A stretch of DNA of 64,000 nt from Jiangella endophytica (lineage in GTDB: Bacteria; Actinomycetota; Actinomycetes; Jiangellales; Jiangellaceae): the NCBI RefSeq assembly GCF_003427025.1, contig NZ_QVAI01000011.1, forward strand, positions 1 through 64,000, read 5' to 3'. The notes below the pieces were generated by a model, which was given only the letters and a program-made list of their open reading frames with translations, made no database searches and was not told the origin of the DNA. This document shows, in pieces, positions 17,557 through 32,835 of the stretch (positions are counted from its first letter, which is position 1; each line of letters starts with the position of its first letter). Position numbers and translations under genes: made by a program.

Positions 17557-19041
17557 TCAGGCGACGCTGCCGGCTCGGTGCCCGAAGACCGCACCGGCGG
17601 CCAGGCCCGTGCCGCCCGGGTAATTGCCGCTGAACAGCCCGCCCAGCATCTCGCCCGCGACCAGCAGGCCCGGAATCGGAGCGTCGTCGTCGGTGAGGAC
17701 CCGCCCATGCGTGTCGGCTCGCAGGCCGCCGAACGTGAAGGTGATGCCGCACGTCACCGGGTAGGCGTAGTACGGCGGCGTCCGCAGCGGAGCGGCCCAG
17801 TTGCTCTTCGGCGGGCGGACGTCGGAGCGCCGGCCGTCCTTGACGGTCGGGTCGAACCGTGCCGTGGTGTCGATGGCGGCGTTGTACTCGGCCACCGTCT
17901 TGCGCAGTCCCGGCTCGTCGATGCCGGCCTGCCGCGCGAGCTCCTCGATCGTGTCGGCCACGACGACGGTGATGCCGGGCATGTCGTACTCCTCGGCCCG
18001 CAGCAGCGGCCGCAGCTCGGCGTCGAACAGCTGGAAGGCGACCGAGCCGGGCTGCTCGAGGATCTGGCTGCCGTACTTGGCGTAGGTGTAGTTGCGGAAG
18101 TCCTCGCCCTCGTCGACGAAGCGCTCGCCGTCGACGTTGACGACGATGCCGAGCGGATAGCTCTGCCGGGTCAGCCGGTTGGTCAGCTCGCGGTTGCTCT
18201 CGTTGTTCGGGTGGCCCGCGTCCCAGGCGACGGCGTGGCAGGTCGACCAGTCTCCGGACCGCCCGGCGCCGATCCGCAGCGCTTCGACCAACACCTCGCC
18301 GGTGTTGTTCTGCGTGCCGCGGACCCGGGCGTTGGCCCAGCCGCGGCCGAGGTGACGCTCGCGCAGCTGCGGGTCGGCCTCGAACCCGCCGGCGGCCAGG
18401 ACCACCGACTCCGCCGCCAGCTCGCCGCGGGTGCCGTCGCTCGTCACGTAGGCGACCCCGGTGACGGTGCCGTCGTCGACCAGCAGCTCCTGGACGGCGT
18501 GGCCGAAGCGGAGGTCGACGCCGAGAGCGGCGGCGGCGCGGGCGTGGTCGGCCATGAGGCCCTGCCCGCCGTCGACGTTGCCGACGTGCAGCCCGCCCCA
18601 GAACAGGTAGGTGCCGTCGTCGCGCTGGTAGGCCTGCCGCTCGTACATCAGCCGGTACCGCAGCCCGTGCCCGTGCAGCCAGCGCAGGACCCGGCGGCTC
18701 TCGGCCACCAGCACCCGGGTGAGATCCGGGTCGTTGCGCCCGCCGGTCACCTTGGCGAGATCCGCGGCGTACTCGTCGGCGGAGTAGGGCGGCACCTCTG
18801 TGAGCCCGTGGCGGTCGTCGGGCTCGACGATGTCGAGCAGGTCGGACAGCCCGTCGTGCACGATGCGGGTCGCGCCCGCCGTGTAGTAGCTGTTGCCGCC
18901 CGCGTGCTCGCGGTCGCCCTTCTCCAGCAGGACGACCGAACGGCCGCGCTCGGCGGCGGCGAGCGCGGCGCAGAAGCCGGCGTTGCCGCCGCCCACGACG
19001 ACGACGTCGGCGAACGGCCGGGCGGTTCCCAGTCGGTTCAA
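17557..19041 (-). CDS. FAD-dependent dehydrogenase, TcuA (tricarballylate dehydrogenase)-like
   Basis: Flavoprotein of the fumarate reductase/succinate dehydrogenase superfamily, 494 aa from a TTG with a GGAG site 6 bases upstream. A GTG at 19092 overlapping the ALDH stop would add 17 residues. The FAD dinucleotide motif is VVVGGGNAGFCAALAAAERG near the N-terminus. The C-terminus has TFGGLRADTHGRVL and GEMLGGLFSGNYPGGTG, the second FAD/substrate region. Similarity is closest to TcuA, which oxidises tricarballylate to cis-aconitate. No TcuB-like electron-transfer gene is present, so the acceptor and exact substrate are open. It is the last gene of a long operon. Confidence 0.8.
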   Translation of the reverse strand: MNRLGTARPFADVVVVGGGNAGFCAALAAAERGRSVVLLEKGDREHAGGNSYYTAGATRIVHDGLSDLLDIVEPDDRHGLTEVPPYSADEYAADLAKVTGGRNDPDLTRVLVAESRRVLRWLHGHGLRYRLMYERQAYQRDDGTYLFWGGLHVGNVDGGQGLMADHARAAAALGVDLRFGHAVQELLVDDGTVTGVAYVTSDGTRGELAAESVVLAAGGFEADPQLRERHLGRGWANARVRGTQNNTGEVLVEALRIGAGRSGDWSTCHAVAWDAGHPNNESNRELTNRLTRQSYPLGIVVNVDGERFVDEGEDFRNYTYAKYGSQILEQPGSVAFQLFDAELRPLLRAEEYDMPGITVVVADTIEELARQAGIDEPGLRKTVAEYNAAIDTTARFDPTVKDGRRSDVRPPKSNWAAPLRTPPYYAYPVTCGITFTFGGLRADTHGRVLTDDDAPIPGLLVAGEMLGGLFSGNYPGGTGLAAGAVFGHRAGSVA

Positions 19042-19088
19042 GATGTACTCCGCTTCTCCGGTGGACGGGCTGACGCGCGGACGCGGCG

Positions 19089-20507
19089 TCACGGGCCGAG
19101 CGTCAGCAACGTCTCCTCGGTCATCTCGCGGATGGCGTAGGCCGGACCCTCGTGGCCGAACCCGCTGGCCTTGACGCCACCGAAGGGCATGAGGTCGACG
19201 CGGGCGCTGGAGGTCTCGTTGACGTGCACGGTGCCGACGCGCAGCCGGCCGGCGACGTGCAGCGCCCGGCCGATGTCTGACGTGAACAGGCCGGCCGCGA
19301 GGCCGTAGGGGGTGTCGTTGGCCTCGTCGATCGCCTTGTCGACGTCGGTGAACGGCCGGATGGACACGACCGGGCCGAAGATCTCGCGGCACATGACGTT
19401 CATGTCCGGCGCGACGTCGGTGAGCACGGTGGGCTGGACGACGGCGCCCTTCCTCGTCCCGCCGGTGACGACCTCGGCGCCGCCGCCGGCCGCGGCCGAC
19501 ACCCAGCTCTCGACCCGCTCGGCCGCCTGCTCGTCGATGAGCGGGCCGATGAACGTGTCCGGTTCGCGCGGGTCACCGATCGCCCGGCCGTCCAGCGCGG
19601 CCTCCAGCGCCGCGGTGAAGTCGCCGGCGACGGCCTCGTGCACGTAGAGCCGCTGCACCGACGTGCACACCTGGCCGGCCTTGCGGAAGGCGGCGTTGAC
19701 GCACAGCCGCACCGCGCGGGCGAGGTCGGCGTCCTCGCAGACGATGGTGCTGGCCAGGCTGCCCAGCTCGAGCTGGGCCCGGCGCACGCCGATGGTGCGC
19801 TGGATGTGCTCGCCGACGGCCGTGCTGCCGGTGAACGCGTAGTACGCGGGCACCTCGTCCTCGAGCAGCCACTGGCCCACCGTGGGACCGTCGCCGTACA
19901 GGACGCTGATCAGGTCCGGCGGCAGGCCGGCGTCGAGCAGCACCCGCAGCAGCAGGTCCGCCGTCAGCGGCGTCTGCACGGCCGGCTTCAGGACGACGCC
20001 GTTCCCGGCCGCCAGCGCCGGCGCGATCTTGTGGGCGACGGTGTTGAGCGGCGAGTTGAACGGGGTGATGGCGCACACGACGCCGACCGGGCGCCGCACC
20101 GTGAACGCGACCCGTGCCGGCCCGCTCGGGTCGGCGTCGATGGGCACCACCTCGCCCCGCAGCCGCTTGGCCTCCTCGCCGGACAACAGCAGCGTCTGCG
20201 CCGTCCGCTCCACCTCCCGCCGGGCGTCCACGGTGGTGAAGCCGGTGTCGGTGACGATCGACTCGACCAGTTCGCCGGCCCGCTCGAGCACCAGCTCGCC
20301 GGCACGGGCGAGGATCCGGTAACGGTCGTACGGCGAGAGGGCCTGCCCGGCCTGCGCGGCGGCGACGGCCCGGGTGGCCTCCGCGACCTGCGCGCGGCCG
20401 GGCGACTGGATGTCGGCCACCGGCTCGCGCGTGTAGGTGTCGCGGGCGACGGCGCTCTGCTCGCCGTCGACCCAGTCACCCGCCACGAACGGGCGCAGCT
20501 GCTTCAT
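19089..20507 (-). CDS. Aldehyde dehydrogenase family protein
   Basis: NAD(P)-dependent aldehyde dehydrogenase, 472 aa. Catalytic residues are visible: Cys281 in GQVCTSVQR, general base Glu247 in QLELGS, and Asn151 in TPFNSPLN. The cofactor-binding GSTAVG motif is at residues 227-232. The layout (short N-terminus, PFNSPLN) resembles the lactaldehyde/glyceraldehyde-3-phosphate (GapN-like) side of the family. It lies 14 bases downstream of the ThDP enzyme and would oxidise an aldehyde made by that decarboxylase or by an LLM enzyme. Confidence 0.9.
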   Translation of the reverse strand: MKQLRPFVAGDWVDGEQSAVARDTYTREPVADIQSPGRAQVAEATRAVAAAQAGQALSPYDRYRILARAGELVLERAGELVESIVTDTGFTTVDARREVERTAQTLLLSGEEAKRLRGEVVPIDADPSGPARVAFTVRRPVGVVCAITPFNSPLNTVAHKIAPALAAGNGVVLKPAVQTPLTADLLLRVLLDAGLPPDLISVLYGDGPTVGQWLLEDEVPAYYAFTGSTAVGEHIQRTIGVRRAQLELGSLASTIVCEDADLARAVRLCVNAAFRKAGQVCTSVQRLYVHEAVAGDFTAALEAALDGRAIGDPREPDTFIGPLIDEQAAERVESWVSAAAGGGAEVVTGGTRKGAVVQPTVLTDVAPDMNVMCREIFGPVVSIRPFTDVDKAIDEANDTPYGLAAGLFTSDIGRALHVAGRLRVGTVHVNETSSARVDLMPFGGVKASGFGHEGPAYAIREMTEETLLTLGP

Positions 20508-20521
20508 GCTTCTCCTCCGTG

Positions 20522-22129
20522 TCAGAACTGCGACGCGTACTGGGCCGGGTCGATGCGCGCCTCGACGACCAGTGGGCGGGTCAGGCCGGCGACGCCCTCG
20601 ATGGCGCGGTCCAGCTCGGCCCGCGACTCCACCCTGATGCCGTCGCAGCCCATCGCCCCGGCCAGCTGGACGAGGTCGGTGTCCTCGATGCGGGTCGCGA
20701 CGCTCGGGTAGCTGACCGCCATCTGCTTGAGCTCGATCCGGTTGAGGCTGCCGTCGACGAACACGACCACGACGATCGGCAGTCCGAGCGCCGCCGCCAG
20801 CCGCATCTCCGTCGCGACCATGGCGAAGCCGCCGTCGCCGACGAGGGCCGCGACCGGCCGGTCCGGGTGCAGCAGCTTCGCGGCGATGGCCGCCGGCACG
20901 CCGAAGCCCATCGCCGACAGGCCGTTGGTCATGAGCACGCTGCGCGGCCGGGTGGCCGGCCAGCCCTGCCCGACCAGCAGCTTGTGCGATCCGACGTCGG
21001 AGGTGACGATCGCGGTCGCGGCCAGCCGGCCGGCCACCACGTCCACCACGTCGGTGGGGTTGAGCCGATCGGCCACGCGGCCGTCGTAGTAGGCATCGCG
21101 CAGCCGGGCGCGGTGCTCCTTGACCTCCCGCTCGGTCCAGCGCGGCTCACCGGTCCAGCCGTCGGCCAGCCAGCCGAGCCCGGCCGCGACGTCGCCGACC
21201 ACCTCGCTGGCGGCGGCGTAGATCTGGTCGGTGTTCGGTGTGGTGTCCACGTGCAGCACCGGGGTGGTGAGCCGCCACGGCTTGATCAGCTCGACCGGGT
21301 CGAAGCCGGCCGCCACGATGAGGTCGGCGGACCCCAGGAAGTCCCACACCACCTGGTTGCAGGCCATGTCGAGGACGCCGGCGAACATCGGCGAGTCCTC
21401 CGGGACGACACCCTTGGCCATCGGCGCCACGACCACCGGCAGGCCGGCGGTCTCGGCCAGCCGGAGCAGTTGCTCCGTGGCCTCGCAGCGCGCCGCGCCG
21501 ATGCCGGCCAGCAGCACCGGGCGGCGCGCGGCCGCGAGCAGCCGCGCCGGGTCCGCGCCGCTGACTCCGACTCCCCCACGCACCGGCCCGAGCGGCGGGA
21601 CCGCCACCTCGGCGTCGCGTGCGGTGGCCTTGAACGTGTCCGACCCGACGGTCAGGTGCACGGCACCGGGCCGCTCGGCGGTCGCGGTGCGCAGGGCCTT
21701 GCGCATGACGGTGGCGGCGGCGCCGGCGTCCATGCGTCCGGCCCACTTGGTGACCGGCGCGAACAACGCCTGGTGGTCGACGACCTGATGGGTGAAGAAC
21801 GGCTCGCGGGCCGACTCGATCTGCCCCGACACCGCGAGCAGTGGCACGCGGTCCAGCGTGGCCGCCGCGACGCCGTTGACCAGCGCGGTCGACCCGGGGC
21901 CCAGGGTGGACAGGCAGACCCCGGGCCGGCCGGTGACCATGCCGTACGCCTCGGCCATGAACGCCGCCGTGCCCTCCCGCCGGGCCAGCACGACGTCGAT
22001 GCCGCGCACCCGCGAACGCTCCATGAACTCGATGATCGGATCACCGGGATAGGCGAAGATCGCCTCGGTGCCCGCCTCCGCGAGGTAAGCCGCCATCACA
22101 TCCGCGGTGCTCGCCGCCTCGGCCGCCAT
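20522..22129 (-). CDS. Thiamine diphosphate-dependent enzyme (acetolactate synthase/decarboxylase superfamily)
   Basis: A 535-aa enzyme with all three domains of the pyruvate oxidase/acetolactate synthase family. The catalytic ThDP-activating Glu is Glu52 in RREGTAAFMAEAYG. The ThDP/Mg motif begins GDGGFAMVATEM and ends SLNR in the C-terminal third. The middle domain lacks an obvious FAD-binding signature. Candidates are a 2-oxoacid decarboxylase, carboligase or sulfoacetaldehyde acetyltransferase-like enzyme; sequence alone does not decide. It starts 3 bases after the stop of the F420-type LLM gene, in the same operon. Confidence 0.85.
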   Translation of the reverse strand: MAAEAASTADVMAAYLAEAGTEAIFAYPGDPIIEFMERSRVRGIDVVLARREGTAAFMAEAYGMVTGRPGVCLSTLGPGSTALVNGVAAATLDRVPLLAVSGQIESAREPFFTHQVVDHQALFAPVTKWAGRMDAGAAATVMRKALRTATAERPGAVHLTVGSDTFKATARDAEVAVPPLGPVRGGVGVSGADPARLLAAARRPVLLAGIGAARCEATEQLLRLAETAGLPVVVAPMAKGVVPEDSPMFAGVLDMACNQVVWDFLGSADLIVAAGFDPVELIKPWRLTTPVLHVDTTPNTDQIYAAASEVVGDVAAGLGWLADGWTGEPRWTEREVKEHRARLRDAYYDGRVADRLNPTDVVDVVAGRLAATAIVTSDVGSHKLLVGQGWPATRPRSVLMTNGLSAMGFGVPAAIAAKLLHPDRPVAALVGDGGFAMVATEMRLAAALGLPIVVVVFVDGSLNRIELKQMAVSYPSVATRIEDTDLVQLAGAMGCDGIRVESRAELDRAIEGVAGLTRPLVVEARIDPAQYASQF

Positions 22130-22132
22130 CGG

Positions 22133-23122
22133 TCAGCTCGCCAGCTCGCGCAGGCGCGGCAGCACGTTCTCGCCGATGAGCTTGATGGTGGCCACCGGGT
22201 CGTTGCTGGCCACCTGGATCGAGACCCACTCCGCGTCGATCTGCTCGACCAGCGGACGGTACGCCTCCACCAGCGCGTCGGCGTCGGATACCAGCGTGTA
22301 GCTGCCGAGCACCTCCGCGCGGTCCATCGCGTCGGCCCGCTCGCGCAGAACGGCGGGGTCGGCCGCTTCCAGCCGGCCCGGTGCGCGCAGGCCGCGCATC
22401 GGCCCGAGCGCCCGCCAGGCCTCCTCCTCGTCGCCGGCCAGGACGGTCCACCGGGTGGCCAGGATCCGCGGGTCGTGGTTGCCGCGCTCGGCGGCCGCGG
22501 CCCGGAACGGCTCGATGACCTTGGCGATGGTGTCCTGCGGGTTCTTGACGCTGGTGATGAGGCCGTCGGCGTTGGCACCTGCGAACGCGGCCGACTTCGG
22601 CCCGCCGGCCGCGAGCAGCGTCGGCACCTTGGACGTCGGCGGGCTGTAGAGCTTGGCGGTGGTCGTCTTGTAGTACTCGCCGGCGAAGTCCAGCTTCTCA
22701 CCGTCATGCAGCCGGCGGATGATCTCCAGCGCCTCGCGCATGCGGCCCATCCGCTCGCCGTAGCCGGGGAACTCCCACCCGAGCGGCGTCTCGTTGATGG
22801 CCTCGCCGCTACCGACGCCCAGCAGCAGCCGGCCGCCGGACAGCCGCTGGACGGTGGCCGAGGCCTGGGCGACCAGGCCGGGGTGGTAGTGGAACAGCGG
22901 GCAGGTGACAGACGTACCGAGCTCGACCCGCTCGGTGCGGGCCGCCACCGTGCCCAGCCAGCTCCACACGAAGCCCGCGGCGGACGTGTCGTCGACCCAC
23001 GGGTGGAAGTGGTCGGACCCCAGGACGGTGTCGAACCCGGCCTGCTCGGCCAGGACGGCCTGCTCGACCAGCTCCTCCGGCTGGTACGACTCGTGACTGC
23101 ACAACCACGCGAACTTGACCAT
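22133..23122 (-). CDS. LLM F420-dependent oxidoreductase, G6PDH-like family
   Basis: A 329-aa barrel enzyme whose pattern matches the Fgd-like group (TIGR03557 type): YQPEELVEQAVLAEQAGFD, then SDHFHPW, TERVELGTSVTCPLFHYHPG, and GVGSGEAINE. These positions surround the deazaflavin in F420-dependent glucose-6-phosphate dehydrogenase, so coenzyme F420 is a better guess than FMN. That fits an actinomycete, although no F420 biosynthesis genes are in the window. It follows the first of the DUF3830 genes by 12 bases. Confidence 0.88.
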   Translation of the reverse strand: MVKFAWLCSHESYQPEELVEQAVLAEQAGFDTVLGSDHFHPWVDDTSAAGFVWSWLGTVAARTERVELGTSVTCPLFHYHPGLVAQASATVQRLSGGRLLLGVGSGEAINETPLGWEFPGYGERMGRMREALEIIRRLHDGEKLDFAGEYYKTTTAKLYSPPTSKVPTLLAAGGPKSAAFAGANADGLITSVKNPQDTIAKVIEPFRAAAAERGNHDPRILATRWTVLAGDEEEAWRALGPMRGLRAPGRLEAADPAVLRERADAMDRAEVLGSYTLVSDADALVEAYRPLVEQIDAEWVSIQVASNDPVATIKLIGENVLPRLRELAS

Positions 23123-23134
23123 GCGCTCTTCCCT

Positions 23135-23563
23135 TCAGGCCCGGCCGACGACGATGGCCGACGGGCCCTGGTCGGCCGTACGGGCCACGACGGACAGGAA
23201 CTCCGACCGGTTCGTGACGATCTTGGCCAGGCGGGTGGTGTAGTCGACGCCGACCGCCCAGCGGTACTCGCCGACGCCGTAGCCGATGAGGATCTCGCTG
23301 CCGCGAGGGCGCATCACGAGCGTGCCCGGGTAGATCGACGTGACCGGGTTCTCCAGCTCCGCGACCTCGCGCAGCGGCCCCTCGCCCGGGTGCAGCACGC
23401 CCACGTCGCCGGACCACTTGGCCGAGATGAGCTTGCGCTCGATCGGCTCGGCGAGCATCTCCCACAGCGCGGCGGTGGCCTTCGGCGCGTTCGCCTCCAG
23501 CAGCAGCGCCTCCGCGGCCACGCCGCCGGACTCCAGCCGGATCCGCTTCTCCGTCATCGTCAC
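23135..23563 (-). CDS. DUF3830 family protein (copy 1 of 3)
   Basis: A 142-aa protein of the DUF3830 family, a small beta-barrel fold related to cyclophilins, with no proven activity. Family blocks are visible: an N-terminal IRLESGG strand, PKATAALWEMLAEPI, and the core TSIYPGTLVMRPRG followed by IGYGVGEYRW. The GTG at 23563 overlaps the stop of copy 2; an ATG two codons inside is an alternative. Three such genes in a row suggest a multi-subunit or multi-ligand function inside this operon. Confidence 0.85.
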   Translation of the reverse strand: MTMTEKRIRLESGGVAAEALLLEANAPKATAALWEMLAEPIERKLISAKWSGDVGVLHPGEGPLREVAELENPVTSIYPGTLVMRPRGSEILIGYGVGEYRWAVGVDYTTRLAKIVTNRSEFLSVVARTADQGPSAIVVGRA

Positions 23564-23970
23564 TCCCCCTGCTCGATCCGCACGTCAAGCGCTCCACGGT
23601 CGCGGGTGTCCTGGAGCTTCGCCGCCAGCTCGGCGGCGTTCTCGACCACGTCGCCCAGGTACGTCACCCAATGGGTGCCGGTGCTGCTGCGCGCCTGGCC
23701 CTGGCCGTAGGCGAACACCAGATAGCCGCGGACGGGGTCGTAGGCGACCATGCCCGGGTAGTACATGGAGACCTGGCCCTCGATGCCGGCCGACTCGTCA
23801 CGCAACGCGGCGTCGTGCACGACGGCGCAGTTGCCGCTGCGGCTGGCGTGCACGACCCGGGTCTGCAGGGGCAGCGCGCCCAGGACCGCGGCCACGCCGT
23901 TGGGAGCGGCGGCGTCCTTCAGTTCGGCGACGGCGGTGACGCCGTCGACGGTGATCCGCAGCTTCGTCAC
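23560..23970 (-). CDS. DUF3830 family protein (copy 2 of 3)
   Basis: Middle copy, 136 aa, the most divergent. It keeps the fold pattern: KLRITVDGVTAVAEL, PNGVAAVLGALPLQ, then VSMYYPGMVAYDP and LVFAYGQGQA. The TSIYPGT core of the other two copies has become SMYYPGM, and the Arg-Pro pair after it is replaced. This copy may have a different ligand or a structural role. GTGA overlaps join it to both neighbours. The frame is open far upstream, but only the coupled GTG at 23970 gives a family-like N-terminus. Confidence 0.8.
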   Translation of the reverse strand: MTKLRITVDGVTAVAELKDAAAPNGVAAVLGALPLQTRVVHASRSGNCAVVHDAALRDESAGIEGQVSMYYPGMVAYDPVRGYLVFAYGQGQARSSTGTHWVTYLGDVVENAAELAAKLQDTRDRGALDVRIEQGE

Positions 23971-24395
23971 GACTCGTCCTCCGCTCGGGTGATCGACACC
24001 TCGGTGGAACCGCCCTGCCAGGTGGCGCCGAAGGCGGCCAGCAGCTCGGCGCCGTCGCCGTCCAGCTCGGCCACCGGTGTGGCGTAGGTGCGTCCCACCG
24101 GTCCGCGCGACTCGGCCACGCCGTACGACAGGAACAGCTCGGCGACGCCGCGCGGGTTGGGCCGCACCACGATCGTGCCGGGGTAGATCGACGTCACCGG
24201 CAGTTCGATGTCGTCGAGGGCGGCGATCGGCTGGTTCGGTGTCTTGACCCACACCGCCGATCCGGCCCACCGGGCGTGCGTGATGGTGCCCTCGATCGGC
24301 AGCGACTCCCAGAAGGCGTCGGCCGTCTTCGGCGCGTCCTCGAGCAGGGTGTAACGCGCCGTGGCGTCGCCCACCCGGACTTCGATCCTCTTCAT
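23967..24395 (-). CDS. DUF3830 family protein (copy 3 of 3)
   Basis: First of the trio in transcription order, 142 aa. It carries the family start MKRIEVRVGD, the segment PKTADAFWESLPIEGTITHA and the core TSIYPGTIVVRPNP, then LSYGVAESRGPVG. An in-frame ATG four codons upstream (24407) is possible, but the chosen ATG has a GGGA 6 bases before it and matches the family N-terminus. It lies 39 bases after the LLM gene that starts the operon. Confidence 0.83.
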   Translation of the reverse strand: MKRIEVRVGDATARYTLLEDAPKTADAFWESLPIEGTITHARWAGSAVWVKTPNQPIAALDDIELPVTSIYPGTIVVRPNPRGVAELFLSYGVAESRGPVGRTYATPVAELDGDGAELLAAFGATWQGGSTEVSITRAEDES

Positions 24396-24434
24396 TCCCC
24401 ATCCCATCGGTCGTCTCGATGTGTGCCGGCCGCG

Positions 24435-25418
24435 CTACGCGAACTGCGGGAGGACCTCCTTCCCGAGCAGCTGGATCTGCTCGAGCACCTGCTCCGGGGT
24501 GTTCCCGCTCGGGATGAGCCCGACGTGCTGCATGCCGGCCTGCTCGTACTCCCGCAGCCGGGCCGCGACGTCGGCCGGCGACCCGACGATGTAGGACGTC
24601 TCGGCCGACCGGCCGCGCGCCGCGCCCAGGCCTCGGGCCAGCGAGCTCTCCCACTGTTCCTGGGCCTGCGCGCGCGTCGGCGCGACGAGCACGTCGAACT
24701 GCAGACTGACGTCGATCTCGCCCGGGTCGCGGCCCACCTGGTCGCACGCCGCGCGCAGCGCCTGGATGCGCTCGGTCAGCTGCTCCGGCGTGATGTGCAT
24801 GTGGATCCAGCCCGCGCCCCACCGGGCCGTGCGGCGCAGCATCTCGTCACCGGCACCGGTCATGTACAGCGGGAACGGTCGCTGCACCGGCTTGGGGAAG
24901 ACCTCCGCGCCCTGGACGCTGAAGTACTCGCCGTCGTGGTCGACGACCTGCTCGGTGAGCAGTTTCTCCAGCAGCTCCAGCGACTCCTCGAGCCAGCGGC
25001 CGCGGTTGATCGTGCTGCTGAACCGGCCACGCAGGCGGTCCAGCTCGGTGCGCTTCCCGCCCAGCCCGAGGCCGAGCGCGTACCGCCCGCCGGACAGCAC
25101 GTCGAGGGTGGCCACCTGCTTGGCCAGCAGGATCGGGTCGCGCAACGGCACCGTGATGGCCGACGTGACGAACCGGATCCGCTCGGTGCGGGCGGCCAGG
25201 AACGCCAGTGTCGTCTGGGCCTCGAAGAAGTTCGGCGTGGCGCGGGCCTGACCCGACAACGCCTCGTCGAAGGTGGACTGCAGGTCGTTGGCCCACAGCG
25301 AGTCGAACCCGCTCGCCTCCGCTGTCACCGCGATGTCGGTGAGCACCTGGGGCGTGGTGAACCCCGGTGGATAGACCTTGCCTTCGCGACAGTTCGGTAT
25401 GGCTGCTCCGAAACGCAT
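24435..25418 (-). CDS. LLM class oxidoreductase (F420- or FMN-type)
   Basis: A 327-aa luciferase-like enzyme, first gene of the DUF3830 operon. Motifs are GFDSLWANDLQ, RIRFVTSAITVPLRDPILLAKQ, SGGRYALGLGLGGKR, and the late SYIVGSPADVAARLREYE phosphate-binding turn. The pattern resembles TIGR03619-type enzymes, many of which use F420, but FMN cannot be excluded. A GCATCC-N4-GTATAC site lies 27 bases upstream of its ATG, in the position of an operator for the neighbouring GntR regulator. Confidence 0.86.
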   Translation of the reverse strand: MRFGAAIPNCREGKVYPPGFTTPQVLTDIAVTAEASGFDSLWANDLQSTFDEALSGQARATPNFFEAQTTLAFLAARTERIRFVTSAITVPLRDPILLAKQVATLDVLSGGRYALGLGLGGKRTELDRLRGRFSSTINRGRWLEESLELLEKLLTEQVVDHDGEYFSVQGAEVFPKPVQRPFPLYMTGAGDEMLRRTARWGAGWIHMHITPEQLTERIQALRAACDQVGRDPGEIDVSLQFDVLVAPTRAQAQEQWESSLARGLGAARGRSAETSYIVGSPADVAARLREYEQAGMQHVGLIPSGNTPEQVLEQIQLLGKEVLPQFA

Positions 25419-25512: not shown

Positions 25513-26184
25513 TCAGTCGGTCTCCCAGAGCTTCAGCCGGATGTCGCGGGCCGCGGTGAAGTGCTGCCCGGCCAGCTCGGCGGCGAGCTCTCCGTTGCGT
25601 GCCTCGATGGCGTCGACCAACTGCTCGTGCTCGCGATTGGACGTCTCCCACCGGCCCGGATAGGCCAGCGTCGTCGCCGGGTAGCGGCCCAGGTGCATGC
25701 TCAGCCGGCCGAGCAGGTCGATGAGCGAGCCGTTGTGGCTGGCCCGCCAGACCAGCCGGTGGAACTCGGCGTTGACGGCCGCCTTCGTGGTGGCGTCGGC
25801 GTCGGCCAGCTTGGCCATGCGCGGGATCATCCGGCGCATCAGCAACAGGTCGTTCTGGTTACGCCGGTCGGCGGCGAACCGGGCCGCCGTGGCCTCCAGC
25901 ACGATGCGGGTCTCGTAGATGTCGAGGATCTCCTCGGGGCTGCTCTCCCGCACCACCAGGCCGCGGTCGCCGCGTCGGATCAGGCCGTCCTGCTCGAGGC
26001 GGGTCAGGGCCTCGCGCACCGGCGTGCGGCTGACCTGACACCACTCGGCGAGCGTGGCCTCGACGAGCGCCTGCCCCGGCTCGAGTTCGCCGGAGAGGAT
26101 CGCCTGCCGGATCTTCTCGTAGGGGTTCGGCCGGCGGTCCGGCGGCGGGAATCGTCGCTGATCGTCGCTAGGGGCCGTGACCAT
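25513..26184 (-). CDS. GntR family transcriptional regulator (FCD subfamily)
   Basis: A 223-aa regulator. The N-terminal winged helix-turn-helix is the region PNPYEKIRQAILSGELEPGQ to SRTPVREALTRLEQDGLI. The C-terminal all-helical FCD ligand domain has the metal-binding pattern with Glu/Asp and His residues in YETRIVLEATAA, VNAEFHRLVWRASHN and NREHEQLVDAIEARN. The ATG at 26184 has AAAGG 8 bases upstream and is preferred to the ATG at 26202. It sits between the importer operon and the LLM-DUF3830 operon and most likely represses both until the substrate or an intermediate binds. Confidence 0.92.
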   Translation of the reverse strand: MVTAPSDDQRRFPPPDRRPNPYEKIRQAILSGELEPGQALVEATLAEWCQVSRTPVREALTRLEQDGLIRRGDRGLVVRESSPEEILDIYETRIVLEATAARFAADRRNQNDLLLMRRMIPRMAKLADADATTKAAVNAEFHRLVWRASHNGSLIDLLGRLSMHLGRYPATTLAYPGRWETSNREHEQLVDAIEARNGELAAELAGQHFTAARDIRLKLWETD

Positions 26185-26306
26185 CGGTGCTGCCTTTCTC
26201 ATGGACGTCGGCACCTGGCCCGTGATCCGCGCCCGATCCGCGACCGGTGCGGTGGCCAGGGCCGACACAGGATGAGCATTCGAGACTAGCCGATCTTGAC
26301 CGATCG

Positions 26307-27911
26307 TCACGGCTCCAACGCGCTCCAGGTGAGGTCGCCCGAGAGCGCCCCTGACAGGAACTCGTCGATGCCGCCGAAGCTCGACCGGATGGCGTCCGGC
26401 TGGTCGGCCTGCAGGAGCGTGATCGCCGGCAGGTCCTCGGCGATGAGTGCCTGGGCCTGTGCGTAGATCCCGGCCCGCTGCCCCTGGTCCTGCGTGCGAG
26501 CGGCCTCGGCGAACAACCCGTCCAGCTCCTCGTTGCAGTAGCCGGTCGGGTTGTTGAACGCCAGCTTGTTCGGGTTGCACTTGTAGACCCGCCCGATGCC
26601 GAACTCCGGGTCCGGACGCGTGTCGAGGGAGAGCAGGTTGGTGCCGAAGTCCTGCTGGACGAAGAGCGCGTCGCTGTTGACCGTCGCCTCGTCCTGGGTG
26701 GGCTCGGCCTGCACCCCGATCGCTCGCCAGTTGTCGGCGATGATCGCGGCCAGCGCCTGTGTGTACGGCTGGGTGGCCACGTAGCGGAGCCGGACGCTGA
26801 ACCGGGTGCCGTCGCTCTGCTCCGGGTACCCCGCCTGGTCCAGCAGCGCGGCGGCCGCGTCGGGGTCGTAGCCGTAGGTGTCCAGGTAGTCGACCCCGGT
26901 GTCGGTGGCCCAGAGCCCCGTCGGGAACGACCCCGCCGCCGGATCGGTGAAGTCCGGGTCCGCCGACTTCGACATCAGGTCGCGGTCCAGCGCCATGAAC
27001 AGCGCCTTGCGCACGTCCGGGTCGCCCAGCGGCTCCTCGTTCTGGTTGAGCCACATGGTCATGAACGTCGCCGAGACCCGGCCGTTCTGCAGGGTGATCT
27101 CGTCGTTGCCGTCCAGTGCCTTGACGATGGTGTCGTCGACGTCGAACTTGTTGATGTAGTCGATCTCACCGCTGACCAGGGCGTTGGCGCGCGAGTTGCT
27201 GTCCGGGATCACCTTGTAGATCAGCCGGTCGATGGCCGGCGCGCCGTCCCAGTAGTCCGGGTTGGCCGTCAGGGTGATGGTGTCGCCGCTCCAGCTGTCG
27301 AACACGTAGGGGCCGGTGCCCACCGGGGCGCGGTTGTTCGGGTTCGTCAGCAGGTCGGTGCCCGCGTAGATGTGCTCGGGCTGGATGCTGAAGTCCTGCG
27401 GTCCCAGCGCCAGCAGCAGCGGCGCCAGCGGCTGCTTCAGGGTGACGACGACGGTCGCGTCGTCCGGCGCCGCGACGGAGGCGATGGTGCTGGTCAGCAC
27501 GGCGCCGGTCGGCGACAGCGGCAGCACCTCCTGGAAGCTGAAGACGACGTCGGCCGACGTGAACGGCTCACCGTCGTGCCAGGTGACGCCCTGGCGCAGG
27601 TGGAAGGTGTAGGTCAGGCCGTCGTCGGAGATGTCCCACGACTCCGCCAACGCCGGCACGACGTCCTTGTCCTTCGTGGTGCGCACCAGGCCCTCGGCGA
27701 CGGCCAGGCCGACGGTGGCCGTGAGGGCGTCGGAGGTGAAGCTGCGCACCAGCATCTCCGGCTGGCTGGCCAGGCCGGTGACGAACGTGGTCTCCTCGCC
27801 GCTGCCGCCACCGGTGGAATCGGTGCCGGTGCCGCCGCAGGCGGCCAGTAGCAGCGCCGTGGCCGCGATGGCCGGCACGATGCCGGCCCGCCGCGCGAAC
27901 GTGATGGTCAT
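26307..27911 (-). CDS. ABC transporter substrate-binding lipoprotein (SBP_bac_5 family)
   Basis: A 534-aa lipoprotein with lipobox LLAACGG (lipid Cys25), a Gly/Ser linker and a full family 5 binding domain. Landmarks are ALAESWDISDDGLTYTFHLR and APVGTGPYVFDSWSGDT. It is the last gene of the importer operon; SBP genes more often come first. It overlaps the ATPase gene by ATGA. A 17-base hairpin (CCGCACCG-A-CGGTGCGG, 27928-27944) inside the end of the upstream gene lies just before its start. The ligand is unknown; by position it feeds the LLM-DUF3830 pathway. Confidence 0.93.
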   Translation of the reverse strand: MTITFARRAGIVPAIAATALLLAACGGTGTDSTGGGSGEETTFVTGLASQPEMLVRSFTSDALTATVGLAVAEGLVRTTKDKDVVPALAESWDISDDGLTYTFHLRQGVTWHDGEPFTSADVVFSFQEVLPLSPTGAVLTSTIASVAAPDDATVVVTLKQPLAPLLLALGPQDFSIQPEHIYAGTDLLTNPNNRAPVGTGPYVFDSWSGDTITLTANPDYWDGAPAIDRLIYKVIPDSNSRANALVSGEIDYINKFDVDDTIVKALDGNDEITLQNGRVSATFMTMWLNQNEEPLGDPDVRKALFMALDRDLMSKSADPDFTDPAAGSFPTGLWATDTGVDYLDTYGYDPDAAAALLDQAGYPEQSDGTRFSVRLRYVATQPYTQALAAIIADNWRAIGVQAEPTQDEATVNSDALFVQQDFGTNLLSLDTRPDPEFGIGRVYKCNPNKLAFNNPTGYCNEELDGLFAEAARTQDQGQRAGIYAQAQALIAEDLPAITLLQADQPDAIRSSFGGIDEFLSGALSGDLTWSALEP

Positions 27912-28957
27912 GATCTGTCACTCTCTGCCGCACCGACGGTGCGGCGGTCATGGGCCGGCGGCGAAGCCGGCGACTCGGACAGCAGATGACATGCCGCCAG
28001 TCCGTGGTTCGGGACGGGCAGCAACGGGGGGTCGACCCTCGCGCAGATCTCCATGGCGGACGGGCAGCGCGGGTGGAACCGGCAGCCGCTCGGCGGGGCG
28101 AGGGCTGACGGCGGGTCGCCGGCGAGGGTGCGCCGGGACGGTGCGGAGCCACCCCGCCGGATCCGCGGCGTCGCGGCCAGCAGGGCCTGGGTGTAGGGGT
28201 GCCGGGGCGACCGGAAGATCCGTTCCGTCGGCCCCTGCTCGACGATGCGGCCGAGGTACATGACCGCGACGTCCTGGGCGGTCGAGGCGACGACCGACAG
28301 GTCGTGCGTGATGAGGAGCACGCTGATGCCGCGCTCGGCGCGGATGTCGGCGAGCAGGTTGAGGATCTGGCCCCGGATGGACACGTCCAGTGCGGAGACC
28401 GGCTCGTCGGCGATGATGACGTCGGGCTCGACGGCCAGCGCGCGGGCGATGCCGACCCGTTGCAGCTGCCCGCCGCTGAGCTCGTGCGGGCGCCGGGCCA
28501 GGAACTGGCGCCCCGGCTGCAACCCCACCTGGTCGAGCAGCCGGGCCACGTCGTCCTGGGCGGACCCGCGCGACGTGCGGCCGTACAGCGCCATCGCGCT
28601 GTGCAGCGTCTCGAAGACGCTCTTGCGGGGGTTCAGCGCGGAGCCGGGATCCTGGAAGACGGCTTGCACCTTGGGCCGGAAGCTGCGCTGGTACTCGCGT
28701 CGGCTCAGCTGGTCGATCGGCCGGCCGTGCAGCGCGACCGTGCCGGTGTCGGGCCGCAGCAGGCCGAGCGCCATCCGTGCGGTGGTGCTCTTCCCGCACC
28801 CGCTCTCCCCCACCAGCCCGAGCATCCGGGAGCGGTGCAGCTGCAGGTCGACGCCGTCGACGGCGAGCGCCTGGCCGGGTCCGCGGGACAGGACGCCGCG
28901 GCGGATGCCGTAGCGCTTGCTCACCCCGGACAGGCTGAGCACGGGTTCGCCGGTCAC
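27908..28957 (-). CDS. ABC transporter ATP-binding protein (DppF type)
   Basis: A 349-aa ATPase with Walker [16 protein letters not shown], signature LSGGQLQRVGIARAL, Walker [14 protein letters not shown] and switch His in LITHDLSVV. The C-terminal oligopeptide-transporter domain has the Cys pattern GCRFHPRCPSAMEIC that can hold an iron-sulfur cluster in this family. The GTG start overlaps the DppD-type gene by 4 bases; the longer open frame upstream is not used. Confidence 0.93.
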   Translation of the reverse strand: MTGEPVLSLSGVSKRYGIRRGVLSRGPGQALAVDGVDLQLHRSRMLGLVGESGCGKSTTARMALGLLRPDTGTVALHGRPIDQLSRREYQRSFRPKVQAVFQDPGSALNPRKSVFETLHSAMALYGRTSRGSAQDDVARLLDQVGLQPGRQFLARRPHELSGGQLQRVGIARALAVEPDVIIADEPVSALDVSIRGQILNLLADIRAERGISVLLITHDLSVVASTAQDVAVMYLGRIVEQGPTERIFRSPRHPYTQALLAATPRIRRGGSAPSRRTLAGDPPSALAPPSGCRFHPRCPSAMEICARVDPPLLPVPNHGLAACHLLSESPASPPAHDRRTVGAAESDRS

Positions 28958-29931
28958 TGCGCCTCCCCGTCGGTGTCGGCCCGCAGCCAGCAGCGGGCGG
29001 TGCGGTCCCCGCCGAGCCGCACGACCGGCGGGTCGGTGGCGCAGCGGTCGTGGGCGTCCGGACAGCGGGACCGGAACCGGCAGCCGGTGGTGATGCTGCC
29101 CGGCGGTGGGACCACGCCCGGGATGGTGCGCACCCGTTGCTCGACCGGCTCGTCGACGTCCAGGACGCACGCGAGCAACCCCTGGGTGTAGGGGTGACCA
29201 GGTGCGTCGAAGACGGCGTCGACCGGGCCGGACTCCACGATCTGCCCGGCGTACATCACGTAGACGTACTCGCAGGTCTCGGAGACCACGCCGAGGTCGT
29301 GCGTCACCACCAGCAGCGCCATGCCACGGGCGCGGACGACGTCGGTGATGGTGTCGAGGATCTGAGCCTGCACGGTGACATCGAGCGCCGTCGTCGGCTC
29401 GTCGGCCACCAGCAGCTCGGGGTCACCGGCCAGCGCGATCGCGATGAGTACCCGCTGGCGCATGCCGCCGCTGAGCTCGTGCGGGTAGCGCCGGCGGAAC
29501 GCTCGCGAGCTGTCCAGCCCGACGGAGCGGAACAGCGCCGTCACCTGCACCTCTCGCTCGCGCCGGCCCCGGGTGGCCAGCACCTCCTCGACCTGCTCGC
29601 CGACGGTCATCGTCGGATTGAGCCGGGCCAACGCGTCCTGGAACACCATCGCGATGCGACGACCGCGGTAGTCGCGCAGCTGCCGGTCGTCCAGCGCGGC
29701 GAGGTTCACGCCGTCGTAGCTCGCCTCACCGCTGACACCGTCCAGCGCCGACGGCGGGATGAACCGCAGGATGCCGCGCAGCGTCATCGACTTGCCGCAT
29801 CCGCTCTCACCGACCAACGCGACGCGCTGAGCCGGCCGTACCTCGATGCTCACCTCGTCGACAGGCCTGATCACCCCGGCCGGCGTCTTCAGCGCGACCG
29901 AGAAGTCGCGAACCGCGAGTCCTGTGCTCAT
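28954..29931 (-). CDS. ABC transporter ATP-binding protein (DppD type)
   Basis: A 325-aa ATPase partner of the DppF-type subunit. It has Walker [16 protein letters not shown], signature [15 protein letters not shown], Walker [13 protein letters not shown] and VTHDLGVV. The C-terminal Cys region ([15 protein letters not shown]) is present. It starts 26 bases after the DppC-type stop and overlaps the next gene by 4 bases. Confidence 0.93.
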
Positions 29932-29957
29932 CGCTAACTCCGTCTCGTCGGGTGCGG

Positions 29958-30881
29958 TCAGAGGTGGCTGCTCGTCGGCCGCAGCGCGCGGTTGAGACCG
30001 TCGCCGACGAAATTGGCGGCGAGGACGACGAGGAAGATCACGAGGCCCGCCGGAACGCTCATCCACCACGCGGACAGGTCGCGCTGAGCCTGCTGGAGGA
30101 TGTCGCCCCAGCTGAGGTTCGTCGGGTCGCCGAGGCCGAGAAACGCCAGGCCGGCCTGGAGCAGGATCGCGCTGCCCAGGTCGATGGTCGCCTGCACGAT
30201 CAGCGGCGGCAGCGCGTTGGGCAGGACGTCGGAGACGATGATCCGCCGGTTGGAGTGGCCCACCGTCCGGGCCGCGGCCACCATGTCGGTCGTCATGATC
30301 CGCAGGACCTCGCCGCGCACCAGCCTGGCCATCTGCGGCCACAACGCCATCACCAGGGCCGCGCAGATGTAGGCGAGGTTGGCTCCGAGCACCGCGACGA
30401 TGATCAGCGCCAGCGCGAAGCTCGGGATGACCTGGAAGACCTCGGCGATCCGCATGAGCACGGCGTCGACCCGGCCGCCGTAGAAGCCGGCGACCGCACC
30501 CACCAGCGAGCCGATCACGAGTGTGCCGAGCCCCGTGGCGAGGGCGACGATCAGCGAGACGCGGCCGCCGTGGATGAGCTGGGAGAGGATGTCCCGGCCG
30601 ACGGTGTCGGTGCCCAGCAGGTGCTCGCCGCTGGGCGGCTCCAGCAGCGACTGCGAGACCGCCTGCGGATCGTAGGGCGCGATCCAGTCGGCGGCGACGG
30701 CGACCACCACGACGACGACCAGGACGACCAGCCCGGCGACGGCGGGCGGATGACCGAGGAAGCGACGCAGGGCCTGCCGGCCGCCGGGGACCGGCGGGCG
30801 GCGCCGGCCCGGCCTCCACCGCGGGCCGGACGGTGCGGGCGCGGCGTCGAGGGTGTCCGTGACGTCACGGTCGAGGCTCAT
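29958..30881 (-). CDS. ABC transporter permease (DppC type)
   Basis: A 307-aa permease. A basic/Pro-rich N-terminal tail precedes helix 1 (VAGLVVLVVVVVVAVAA). The motif EHLLGTDTVGRDILSQLIHG and an EAA loop (MVAAARTVGHSNRRIIVSDV) are present, and the protein ends in the usual PAGLVIFLVVLAANFVGDG. The ATG at 30881 overlaps the DppB-type stop by 4 bases. Confidence 0.93.
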   Translation of the reverse strand: MSLDRDVTDTLDAAPAPSGPRWRPGRRRPPVPGGRQALRRFLGHPPAVAGLVVLVVVVVVAVAADWIAPYDPQAVSQSLLEPPSGEHLLGTDTVGRDILSQLIHGGRVSLIVALATGLGTLVIGSLVGAVAGFYGGRVDAVLMRIAEVFQVIPSFALALIIVAVLGANLAYICAALVMALWPQMARLVRGEVLRIMTTDMVAAARTVGHSNRRIIVSDVLPNALPPLIVQATIDLGSAILLQAGLAFLGLGDPTNLSWGDILQQAQRDLSAWWMSVPAGLVIFLVVLAANFVGDGLNRALRPTSSHL

Positions 30882-31864
30882 GCGCGACCTCCCGCACCGG
30901 CGCCGACCCGGATCCGCGGGTCGACGAGGCCGTAGACGAGATCGGTGAGGAGGTTCACCAGCACGACCGCGACGGCGATGAGCAGGACCACCCCGATGGT
31001 CACCGCGTTGTCGCGGTTGCGGATCGACTCGTAGAGCAGCTGGCCCATGCCCGGCCAGCCGAACACCGTCTCGACCAGCACCGACCCGGCCAGGACGAAG
31101 CCGAAGCTGTACCCGATGACGGTGACGGCCGGAAGCAGCGAGTTGCGCACCACGTGCCGGCGGATGATCGTCGCCCGGCTGAACCCCTTGGCCCGCGCGG
31201 TCTCGACGTACGGCAGCGTCAGCACGTCGTGCACGCTCGTGCGCACGATGCGCGCCACCACGCCGATCTCCCGCATCGCCAGCACCAGCGCCGGCAGCAG
31301 CAGGTGCGCGAGCAGGTCGGGCAGCCGGTCGAGCCCTTCGGCGGTCGAGCGGGTGGAGTACATGCCCTGGGACGGCAGCACCGACAGCTTGATCGCGAAG
31401 ACCAGCACCAGCATCTGGCCGAGCCAGAACATCGGGATCGAGAGCGAGCCGACGGCGACACCGGTGACCAGGTGATCCAGGAGCCGGGAGCGCGACACCC
31501 CGGCCCACACGCCCACGGCCACGCCGACGATCGCGGCGAACGTCATCGCGGTGACGGTCAGGATGAGCGTGTTGCCGAGCCGGTCGGCGATGAGGTCGGC
31601 CACCGGGACCCGGCCGGCCAGCGACTCGCCGAGGTTCAGCGTGAAGATCTGCTGCAGGTACTCCCAGTAGCGCACCAGCAGCGGCTGGTCGAGTCCGTAG
31701 GCCTCGGTGACCTGGGCGATGTACTCCGGCGTGGCCGGGTAGTCGCCGATGAGCGCCTGGATGGGATCTCCGGGCGCGAGCTGGAGCAGGAAGAACATCA
31801 GCGTCACCACGCCGAAGAGCAGCGGTACCGCATGAAGGAGCCGGCGTGCGGTGAAGCGGAGCAT
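30878..31864 (-). CDS. ABC transporter permease (DppB type)
   Basis: A 328-aa permease, first gene of the second importer operon. It starts MLRFTARRLLHAVPLLFGV, has the EAA loop YVETARAKGFSRATIIRRHV and ends VYGLVDPRIRVG. A GAGGTG ribosome-binding site precedes the ATG at 31864; an upstream ATG at 31942 is rejected because it lacks a site and would lie inside the operator region. The operator at 31939-31954 lies 75 bases upstream. Confidence 0.93.
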   Translation of the reverse strand: MLRFTARRLLHAVPLLFGVVTLMFFLLQLAPGDPIQALIGDYPATPEYIAQVTEAYGLDQPLLVRYWEYLQQIFTLNLGESLAGRVPVADLIADRLGNTLILTVTAMTFAAIVGVAVGVWAGVSRSRLLDHLVTGVAVGSLSIPMFWLGQMLVLVFAIKLSVLPSQGMYSTRSTAEGLDRLPDLLAHLLLPALVLAMREIGVVARIVRTSVHDVLTLPYVETARAKGFSRATIIRRHVVRNSLLPAVTVIGYSFGFVLAGSVLVETVFGWPGMGQLLYESIRNRDNAVTIGVVLLIAVAVVLVNLLTDLVYGLVDPRIRVGAGAGGRA

Positions 31865-31938
31865 GAACACCTCGCTCTCGCCTGACGGGGGATCTCGGCT
31901 GCCGAGCGCACCCGCGTCCTGATGCGCCGTAGACCATT

Positions 31939-31954
31939 GCATACCGAAGTATGC
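31939..31954. promoter_or_regulatory. Candidate GntR/FCD operator (site 2, perfect palindrome)
   Basis: GCATAC-CGAA-GTATGC, a perfect 6-base inverted repeat in the 118-base gap upstream of the importer operon and downstream of the DUF1932 dehydrogenase. It is the best copy of the three-site set. Confidence 0.7.
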
Positions 31955-31982: not shown

Positions 31983-32795
31983 TCAAGAGGTCTCTGCGGC
32001 CCAGCGCATCCGGCGCGCCGCCGCTTCGGCGAGCCACGGCTCGACCCCGGCGGCGGACAACGTCTTCGCGACCTCGTCGAGTTCGGCCGCCCGGCGTCGT
32101 CCGTGCTCGCGCACGCGGGACCGCAGGTAGGCCGACAGCGCCTGCCAGTCCGACGTGTCCGGAGTCCCGTCGAGGGAACTCAGCACCTCGCCGGTGACGC
32201 CGTAGTGCTCGGCGGCCGTCACGCATTCGACCACCAGCGACTCCAGGCCTTTGACCACCAGGCTGCGCAGCATCTTGACGGCCGCCGCCTGGCCGGGCTC
32301 GGCGCCGATGACCCGCAGGTTCATGCCCAGCCGCTCACCGTGGCGACGCAGATCGCCGGCGCCGCCGCCGCTGAGCAGCACCGGCACCCGATGGCCATGC
32401 GCGGGCACGGCCGCCATCACGGCGCCGTCGGCGAACCGGGCGCCGGTGGGCTCGACCACGGCGGCCACCCGCCGTTTGGTGTCCGGGCCGGCGGAGTTCC
32501 AGTCGGCGTAGAGGTGCCCGGGCCGCAGCTCACCGGTGATCTCCTCCGCCACCGCGACAGCGGACGAGCCGCTGGTGAGGGCGATGAGGATGTCGCATCG
32601 CGCGGCAAGCTCCGCCATAGTGCCGACCAGCGTGACGTCGCCGGCCGCGGCGCGCCGGCGTACTGCGGCGTCGCCGGACCGGACGTCGAACGCATACAGC
32701 CCCACGGCGGACGCGGACAGGCCGGCGGCGATGGCACCGGCGGCCTCGCCCAGACCGACGAAACCCCACCGGACGACGTCATGCGCGAACTCCAT
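31983..32795 (-). CDS. NAD(P)-binding dehydrogenase with DUF1932 C-terminal domain
   Basis: A 270-aa protein of the 6-phosphogluconate/3-hydroxyisobutyrate dehydrogenase superfamily. The dinucleotide motif GFVGLGEAAGAIAAGL lies near the N-terminus. The segment YADWNSAGPDTKRRV corresponds to the substrate loop. The catalytic-Lys helix has AAAVKMLRSLVVKGLESLVVE, characteristic of the DUF1932 branch. A GGGAGGG ribosome-binding site precedes the ATG. It is the first gene of the minus-strand island and has its own GCATAC-type site upstream, so it is probably co-regulated with the importer. Substrate unknown. Confidence 0.82.
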   Translation of the reverse strand: MEFAHDVVRWGFVGLGEAAGAIAAGLSASAVGLYAFDVRSGDAAVRRRAAAGDVTLVGTMAELAARCDILIALTSGSSAVAVAEEITGELRPGHLYADWNSAGPDTKRRVAAVVEPTGARFADGAVMAAVPAHGHRVPVLLSGGGAGDLRRHGERLGMNLRVIGAEPGQAAAVKMLRSLVVKGLESLVVECVTAAEHYGVTGEVLSSLDGTPDTSDWQALSAYLRSRVREHGRRRAAELDEVAKTLSAAGVEPWLAEAAARRMRWAAETS

Positions 32796-32835
32796 GGAAG
32801 TCCCTCCCACCGGCCACACCTGGTCGGACACCATG

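Follow-up and report, generated by a model that had tools for sequence, protein, structure and literature searches.

A tightly packed operon on the minus strand of a 64,000-nucleotide stretch of Jiangella endophytica DNA (hereafter, the window) carries three adjacent, overlapping DUF3830 genes, D1, D2, and D3, whose products are, judged from their sequences, three separate ortholog families. A second DUF3830 trio was found in genomes of another class, and the triplication probably happened twice, each time next to a luciferase-like (LLM) enzyme. That triplets probably arose twice beside the same kind of redox enzyme suggests that the three proteins work together. The explanation we prefer, to which we assign a probability of about 40%, is a substrate-inducible import-and-oxidation pathway in which the trio would act as a hetero-oligomer on a C–N bond; its complex, substrate, activities, and order of steps are what we infer here, whereas the gene content, overlaps, synteny, orthology of each copy, second trio, family neighborhoods, and predicted fold are documented below. 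The observation itself proved stronger than the initial annotation of this DNA had stated.

All genes named in that annotation are present on the minus strand. Transcription runs from position 26202 to 17557 through genes for a GntR/FCD regulator, LLM1, D1, D2, D3, the F420-type enzyme LLM2, a ThDP enzyme, an aldehyde dehydrogenase (ALDH), and a TcuA-like flavoprotein (Table 1). Upstream of the GntR gene, on the same strand and up to position 32834, lie genes for a solute-binding protein (SBP), two OppD/F-type ATPases, two Dpp-type permeases, and an NAD_binding_2/DUF1932 protein. Genes overlap by 4 bp at the D1/D2, D2/D3, and ALDH/TcuA junctions; the remaining spacers from LLM1 to ALDH are 3–27 bp long, and 94 bp separate the GntR and LLM1 genes. 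Promoter and terminator scans gave no excess over shuffled sequence, and the inverted repeats seen near the GntR and LLM1 genes were short and unconvincing. The SBP had 11 NCBIfam matches, all under their cut-offs. Gene content provides good support for the earlier proposal that this is a catabolic unit with its own importer and GntR regulator.

Table 1. Genes of the operon and its importer in the window, in order of transcription.
Feature	Position	Strand	Basis and remarks
NAD_binding_2 + DUF1932 protein (beta-hydroxyacid-dehydrogenase-like), probable first gene of the unit	31983..32834	-	Pfam
DppB-type permease	30878..31942	-	Pfam BPD_transp_1; syntenic
DppC-type permease	29958..30840	-	Pfam OppC_N + BPD_transp_1; start approximate, inside ORF 29958-31937
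OppD-type ATPase	28954..29980	-	Pfam ABC_tran + oligo_HPY; start approximate, inside ORF 28954-30819
OppF-type ATPase	27908..28930	-	Pfam ABC_tran + oligo_HPY; start approximate, inside ORF 27908-29170
SBP_bac_5 solute-binding protein (peptide/nickel/opine class)	26307..27911	-	Pfam, 291 bits
GntR/FCD regulator	25513..26202	-	Pfam; nearest NCBIfam PhnR_burk, under cut-off
LLM1, TIGR03619-family F420-type luciferase-like oxidoreductase	24435..25418	-	Above family cut-off
D1, DUF3830	23967..24407 (or from ATG 24395)	-	Pfam PF12903
D2, DUF3830, altered member	23560..23970, GTG start	-	Pfam PF12903; AF2 model
D3, DUF3830	23135..23563	-	Pfam PF12903; AF2 model
LLM2, TIGR03557 (F420 glucose-6-phosphate dehydrogenase-like)	22133..23122	-	Above family cut-off
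ThDP enzyme, acetolactate-synthase-like (PRK08322-like, under cut-off)	20522..22129	-	Pfam/NCBIfam
Aldehyde dehydrogenase (ALDH)	19089..20507	-	Pfam/NCBIfam
TcuA-like FAD dehydrogenase	17557..19092, GTG start	-	NF006130

The three overlapping paralogs all scored above the PF12903 cut-off of 26 bits (D1, 47.5 bits; D2, 46.7 bits; D3, 29.4 bits, the D3 match spanning residues 9–53 only), and a PF12903 search of the J. endophytica genome found no further DUF3830 place. Pairwise identities are 32% (D1/D2), 39% (D1/D3), and 33% (D2/D3). At E ≤ 0.001, 29 relatives of D1, 19 of D2, and 47 of D3 were recovered, two proteins being common to the D1 and D3 lists; a near-identical relative of D1 is from J. 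alkaliphila (96%). Seven contigs (lengths 58060, 24977, 16529, 13892, 10974, 6432, 2533) recurred in the lists of all three copies, and further contigs had two copies (D1+D2, three; D2+D3, two; D1+D3, one), the sameness of contigs being judged in both counts by equal size only.

In an IQ-TREE tree of 73 rows, drawn from a 138-row alignment, D1 (99/94), D2 (99/99), and D3 (90/89) each formed one clade, and the three together made up one side of a branch (99/94); long branches were flagged. Rows of the second trio in both the tree and the alignment come from four of its six genomes, and one 79-residue protein (P0093) was omitted from the alignment. Because the three clades are deep, a recent simple duplication of D1–D3 is ruled out, as the initial annotation had held. 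Most D1 rows carry a PVTSIYPG-type core and a YGxAESR-type motif, D3 is characterized by LENPVTSIYPG and EYRW, and D2 by QVSMYYPGM-type, YGQGQARS, and HWV motifs. The further claim that copy 2 had lost its TSIYPGT core was right in that D2 reads VSMYYPGM at the place of the TSIYPGT of D1 and D3, but "lost" is the wrong emphasis: D2 retains YPG, and its orthologs conserve the variant. Since the motif is retained in orthologs, decay of D2 is ruled out as well.

In a sample of 393 genomes of the class, DUF3830 was found in 63 (62 above the cut-off). Six of these, all in the genus and J. endophytica among them, carry a tandem of three genes, whereas each of the remaining 57 carries a single gene. 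Within the genus, the trio is present in six of the 12 sampled genomes (again counting J. endophytica) and missing in six; the ThDP gene was found in 5/5 trio-bearing relatives and, at E ≤ 1e-60, in 0/6 trio-less members. Genes for the GntR regulator, LLM1, D1–D3, LLM2, the ThDP enzyme, ALDH, TcuA, the SBP, and the OppD-type ATPase are syntenic in the five relatives, at 83–98% identity, and the second ATPase was matched piecewise in one comparison and at 86–94% in another. The conserved triplet and gene order are thus more than chance. Four of the five relatives have a DUF1932 gene next to the importer (whole in L036/L056, partial at stretch ends in L054, L055, and L058), and none was found beside the importer in J. 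asiatica (L035/L057). A genome-contig scan with query A1 gave loci in two Jiangella only (J. asiatica and J. muralis), and a D3 search of plasmids gave no match. In J. muralis, an amidohydrolase gene lies downstream of TcuA; its product, which scores below the NCBIfam cut-off, matches the amidohydrolase of the second trio at 32%. An amidohydrolase of that type, the only type sought, was absent beside the operon in the other four relatives, which counts against a C–N reading.

The second trio emerged from a search of 396 genomes of the phylum, which found DUF3830 in 43 (J. endophytica included) and turned up three adjacent genes in one more genome, G177, a member of another class. Query A3 matched six of the 138 genomes of its order, yielding five trio genomes beyond G177, and PF12903 matched 14 of the 296 genomes of its class, four of which (G177, G679, G683, and G686) had three adjacent genes. 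In the six genomes, the trio (trio B; D1'-D2'-D3', here B1, B2, and B3) is followed by an Amidohydro_3 protein and then by an LLM enzyme. The genes that precede it in G177 are those for a GntR protein and for an ABC importer accompanied by a RutB/biuret-hydrolase-like protein (RutB/BiuH-like, below cut-off). The LLM enzyme resembles F420 Mer-type proteins, below the cut-off. Four genomes in the genus of three trio-B genomes (G682, G685, G687, and G688) lack a trio and have two DUF3830 genes at scattered positions, which counts against our preferred explanation; one member of the family of G177 (G775) has a single short-type gene, on a 5986-base contig, and no trio. Five two-copy genomes (G065, G098, G163, G218, and G270) were rejected as tandem cases, since the two copies lie 18 kb from each other in G098 and on separate contigs in the rest. 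A search for adjacent DUF3830 genes and their neighbors, as the initial annotation had proposed, shows that triplets recur in other genomes and that their neighbors are non-random; the first outcome that it had named as refuting, unconserved triplets or randomly varying neighbors, was thus not obtained.

AU tests rejected D1+B1 (p 0.0009), D3+B3 (p 0.0013), and D2+B3 (p 0.0049) as clades and left standing D2+B2 (p-AU 0.073) and B1+B2+B3 as one clade (0.26); the groupings were chosen after inspection of the tree, and long branches were flagged. A single ancestral trio inherited by both lineages was rejected on the first three of these results, D2+B2 being the pairing not rejected. The failure of one-to-one orthology for two of the three pairings is what makes a twofold triplication probable. 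The surviving D2+B2 grouping and the flagged long branches count against our preferred explanation.

Position 71 (D3 numbering) is Glu in 138/138 rows and is the only invariant site of the 28 tabulated. At position 50, Trp or Tyr is found in all D3 (47/47), B1 (4/4), B2 (4/4), long-type (18/18), and short-type (12/12) rows and in the one G438 row; of the 28 D1 rows, 19 have Trp and nine Leu. The same position is Arg in 20/20 D2 rows and Glu in 4/4 B3 rows. Position 90 is Val in all four B3 rows, Glu in seven of 20 D2 rows, and acidic in every row of the other groups, and position 34 is Trp in five of the 20 D2 orthologs. In the alignment, each trio has one member with a charged residue where the family is mostly aromatic, a pattern noticed post hoc and on related rows; because Glu90 and Trp34 persist in some D2 orthologs, it is at site 50 alone that D2 clearly stands out as an "altered subunit". 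The initial suggestion of a heteromeric enzyme is plausible and has gained ground from the probable independence of the two triplications, the altered member in each trio, and the 4-bp overlaps; toward such a complex, taken alone, we lean slightly.

Outside the trios, DUF3830 usually occurs as a lone gene, in many cases adjoining C–N hydrolases (allantoinase, hydantoinase, amidase) in purine/ureide operons. Most short-type genes belong to ureide operons. The 28 short-type stretches contain uricase (20), M20 amidohydrolase (16), and an allantoinase-like protein (14), and in five of them DUF3830 is followed by a carbamoyltransferase, a carbamate kinase, and an asparaginase-like protein; scores above allantoinase cut-offs were obtained in L065, L067, and L069, and above the allantoate amidohydrolase cut-off in L067. 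The 19 long-type (3kop-like) stretches contain amidase (17), EutA/arylmalonate-decarboxylase-like proteins (17, below NCBIfam cut-offs), and class-III aminotransferase (13). DUF3830 is carried by 40 plasmid records. It is accompanied by dihydropyrimidinase or acetamidase/formamidase on plasmids of Alpha- and Betaproteobacteria and by a cyanuric acid amidohydrolase above the cut-off on a Skermanella plasmid, and none of these three lies near it on a Thalassospira plasmid. A C–N hydrolase was found within 4 kb of DUF3830 in 22/28 short-type, 17/19 long-type, and 10/14 plasmid stretches, counts in which some reference proteins were taken from the very loci counted (giving self matches), several of the loci are closely related, contig ends cut off some of the stretches, L064, L124, L127, and L131 fall outside the three groups, the window itself is the sole control, and the 14 plasmid stretches (five without annotation) were hand-picked from 22 listed rows (2 records, and 20 listed of 40). 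The window had no match to the C–N hydrolase reference set, which counts against a C–N reading. The association is one of the family, and its carry-over to the window's trio we infer.

AF2 models were obtained for D2 (pLDDT 94.5) and D3 (pLDDT 94.3), and the predicted DUF3830 folds, which contain a cyclophilin-like barrel as in 3kop, matched 3kop best, then the Pictet-Spenglerase domains of KslB and McbB, and then cyclophilins. By sequence, KslB and McbB were reached at E 0.1–0.3 only, and no counterpart of the McbB catalytic glutamate could be mapped on DUF3830 from the sequence comparison. The multi-domain long chain of the Pictet-Spenglerase/cucumopine synthase kind is absent: D1–D3 are single barrels of 136–146 amino acids, compared with 317–337 for the reference chains, the domain make-up of which was deduced from PDB names (these include "Cucumopine synthase") and match ranges. 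Those are long ring-closing chains, whereas Jiangella has three small chains in a catabolic operon. A shared fold in itself shows no function. The solved DUF3830 (PF12903) member 3kop is from Arthrobacter sp. FB24; long-type genes like that of 3kop and their short-type counterparts usually stand alone, next to amidase/EutA-like or uricase/allantoinase genes, in contrast to the three diverged copies and two LLM enzymes of Jiangella. A literature search that covered few subscription journals found no paper giving DUF3830 (3KOP/PF12903/YP_831253) a function, and none tying cyclophilin-like proteins to hydantoin or LLM, or KslB to cyclophilin. To this extent the family has no assigned chemistry, as was originally noted, but its neighborhoods and fold neighbors do point to C–N chemistry.

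LLM1 scored above the TIGR03619 cut-off, and no close solved relative of it was found. LLM2 reached 225.8 bits with TIGR03557 (cut-off 210.4 bits) and 195.4 bits with TIGR03554 (F420 glucose-6-phosphate dehydrogenase, FGD), under the cut-off of 420 bits. Its nearest relatives are F420 glucose-6-phosphate and hydroxymycolate dehydrogenases, and a gap-free alignment to FGD places its His38, Trp42, and Glu107, in SDHF, PW, and GEAxNE segments, at what we take to be the FGD catalytic triad. With these relatives and this alignment, LLM2 is likely a hydride-transferring alcohol or hemiacetal dehydrogenase. CofD was found above the cut-off in the J. endophytica genome, with a model that also matches 6/14 control genomes (E. 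coli included), three of them above the cut-off, a count that tells against our preferred explanation. The Rut pathway (LLM enzyme RutA and isochorismatase RutB) likewise has an LLM enzyme in a catabolic operon; however, LLM1 falls in TIGR03619, RutA is not among the best 25 matches listed for LLM1 or LLM2, and no isochorismatase-family match was found among the operon proteins scanned.

The ThDP enzyme is nearest to acetolactate-synthase-like proteins, with no cut-off reached among the best 25 matches listed (389 bits with NF006187, PRK08322 acetolactate synthase; cut-off 509 bits), and ALDH likewise reached no family cut-off among its best 25 matches listed. The NCBIfam scans of trio-B and paralogous loci, too, covered at most the 25 best matches of each protein. 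The TcuA-like flavoprotein scored 559.2 bits with NF006130 (cut-off 369 bits) and 267.4 bits with TIGR02485, under the cut-off of 372.55 bits; compared with tricarballylate utilization, scans of the operon genes found no TcuB. A paralogous locus of J. asiatica, without DUF3830, has ThDP (64%) and TcuA-like (41%, above the NF006130 cut-off) proteins, two PrpD proteins, a DUF1932 protein, an isopropylmalate/tartrate-dehydrogenase-like protein (below cut-offs), and a PEP-mutase-like protein. That this locus joins ThDP and TcuA-like enzymes to PrpD and the others speaks for a lower pathway that handles an oxo- or polycarboxylic acid. TcuA, ThDP, and DUF1932 are more suggestive of polycarboxylate than of nitrogen metabolism, which counts against our preferred explanation. 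Ureide/hydantoin operons (allantoinase, dihydropyrimidinase, carbamoylase) frequently contain DUF3830, whereas the window has no cyclic amidohydrolase match. For LLM2, ThDP, and ALDH, carbinol to ketone to aldehyde to acid would be a coherent order.

In the pathway that we prefer, a Dpp-class ABC importer would bring in a small polar substrate, to be activated by LLM1 (with F420 or flavin). D1–D3, produced from overlapping genes, would assemble as one hetero-oligomer of Pictet-Spenglerase-like/cyclophilin-like barrels and break or rearrange a C–N bond in a ring, amide, or ureide; D2, having lost the family's conserved aromatic residue, would be a structural or regulatory subunit. LLM2 with F420 would oxidize the exposed carbinol to a carbonyl, the ThDP enzyme would decarboxylate a 2-oxo acid, ALDH would yield an acid, and the TcuA-like flavoprotein would introduce a C=C bond on the way to central metabolism. 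Perhaps the trio acts on nitrogen-containing ring compounds. A bolder version is a long shot: DUF3830 would be a catabolic branch of the Pictet-Spenglerase-like fold that opens, closes, or isomerizes C–N bonds of heterocycles and ureides beside cyclic amidohydrolases, the trios would be hetero-oligomers that evolved twice alongside LLM enzymes (probably F420-type), each containing a subunit whose active site is altered, and in Jiangella a retro-Pictet-Spengler-type step would serve to break down a cyclic compound resembling an opine or alkaloid.

There is an appreciable, if minor, chance that D1–D3 are instead three separate enzymes for successive steps (e.g., a racemase/tautomerase, a lyase, and a hydrolase), each its own homo-oligomer. 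Each copy does have its own strongly conserved motif set, the copies share 32–39% identity, and DUF3830 is single in 57 of the 63 genomes bearing it in the class sample, but subunits are the better fit to the 4-bp overlaps, the unvarying gene order, and the substitution, in one member of each trio, at the same aromatic site. It seems unlikely that the operon degrades a polycarboxylate or hydroxy acid without nitrogen chemistry, with the trio as hydratase-/isomerase-like barrels acting on an unsaturated acid from the TcuA-like enzyme; the NF006130 score and the recurrence of ThDP, TcuA-like, and DUF1932 proteins at the J. asiatica PrpD locus would fit, whereas the C–N hydrolases next to most DUF3830 genes outside the trios and the amidohydrolase of trio B would not.

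We consider it decidedly unlikely that DUF3830 is a non-catalytic accessory that binds or delivers substrate or holds an adjacent amidohydrolase or LLM enzyme: KslB and McbB, the nearest fold relatives of known work, are enzymes, even if small single-domain barrels that mostly adjoin another enzyme, with Glu71 alone invariant among the tabulated sites, agree with such a role. An ordinary lineage-specific duplication with no joint function is scarcely credible. The lack of both the trio and the ThDP gene in the same six of 12 sampled genus genomes could be cited in its favor, but the trio and the ThDP gene come and go together, the clades are deep, and the copies co-occur on further contigs.

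DUF3830 is widespread (43/396 sampled phylum genomes; 40 plasmid records), a family for which the literature search found no function. By their neighborhoods, many members can be assigned to the catabolism of purines/ureides and amides, and this, together with a fold near recently solved enzymes, makes DUF3830 function directly testable. The two triplications, if independent, as is probable, would offer a compact example of how hetero-oligomers evolve.

Amidase genes and genes for EutA/arylmalonate-decarboxylase-like proteins were each found near long-type (3kop-like) DUF3830 in 17 of the 19 stretches containing it (L070-L072, L088-L102, L126), and a class-III aminotransferase was found in 13. 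Long-type DUF3830, amidase, and EutA/arylmalonate-decarboxylase-like genes form a further conserved catabolic cluster, which is uncharacterised. On a Skermanella plasmid (L077), genes for AtzD, acetamidase/formamidase and DUF3830 stand in the same row.

The second ThDP/TcuA-like/DUF1932 locus of J. asiatica (L128, G567:C58) also contains a pair of PrpD genes together with Iso_dh and PEP_mutase-like ones; no DUF3830 match was found within this stretch. In the window, the tRNA-Asp call falls within the reading frame of the DUF1932 gene; it is probably a false positive.

Features near the operon and on the Skermanella plasmid
Feature	Location	Remark
tRNA-Asp call	window 32670-32760	ARAGORN
Glycosyl hydrolase family 64 (beta-1,3-glucanase) gene	window 33717-34979	close to operon
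Cyanuric acid amidohydrolase (AtzD)	L077 5897-7006	over cut-off

Five other stretches (L065, L109, L110, L113, L117) share the gene row uricase, allantoinase, DUF3830, carbamoyltransferase, carbamate kinase, and asparaginase-like. DUF3830 of these operons is a candidate for a step missing from ureide breakdown, such as the racemisation of allantoin or the handling of ureidoglycolate or oxalurate.
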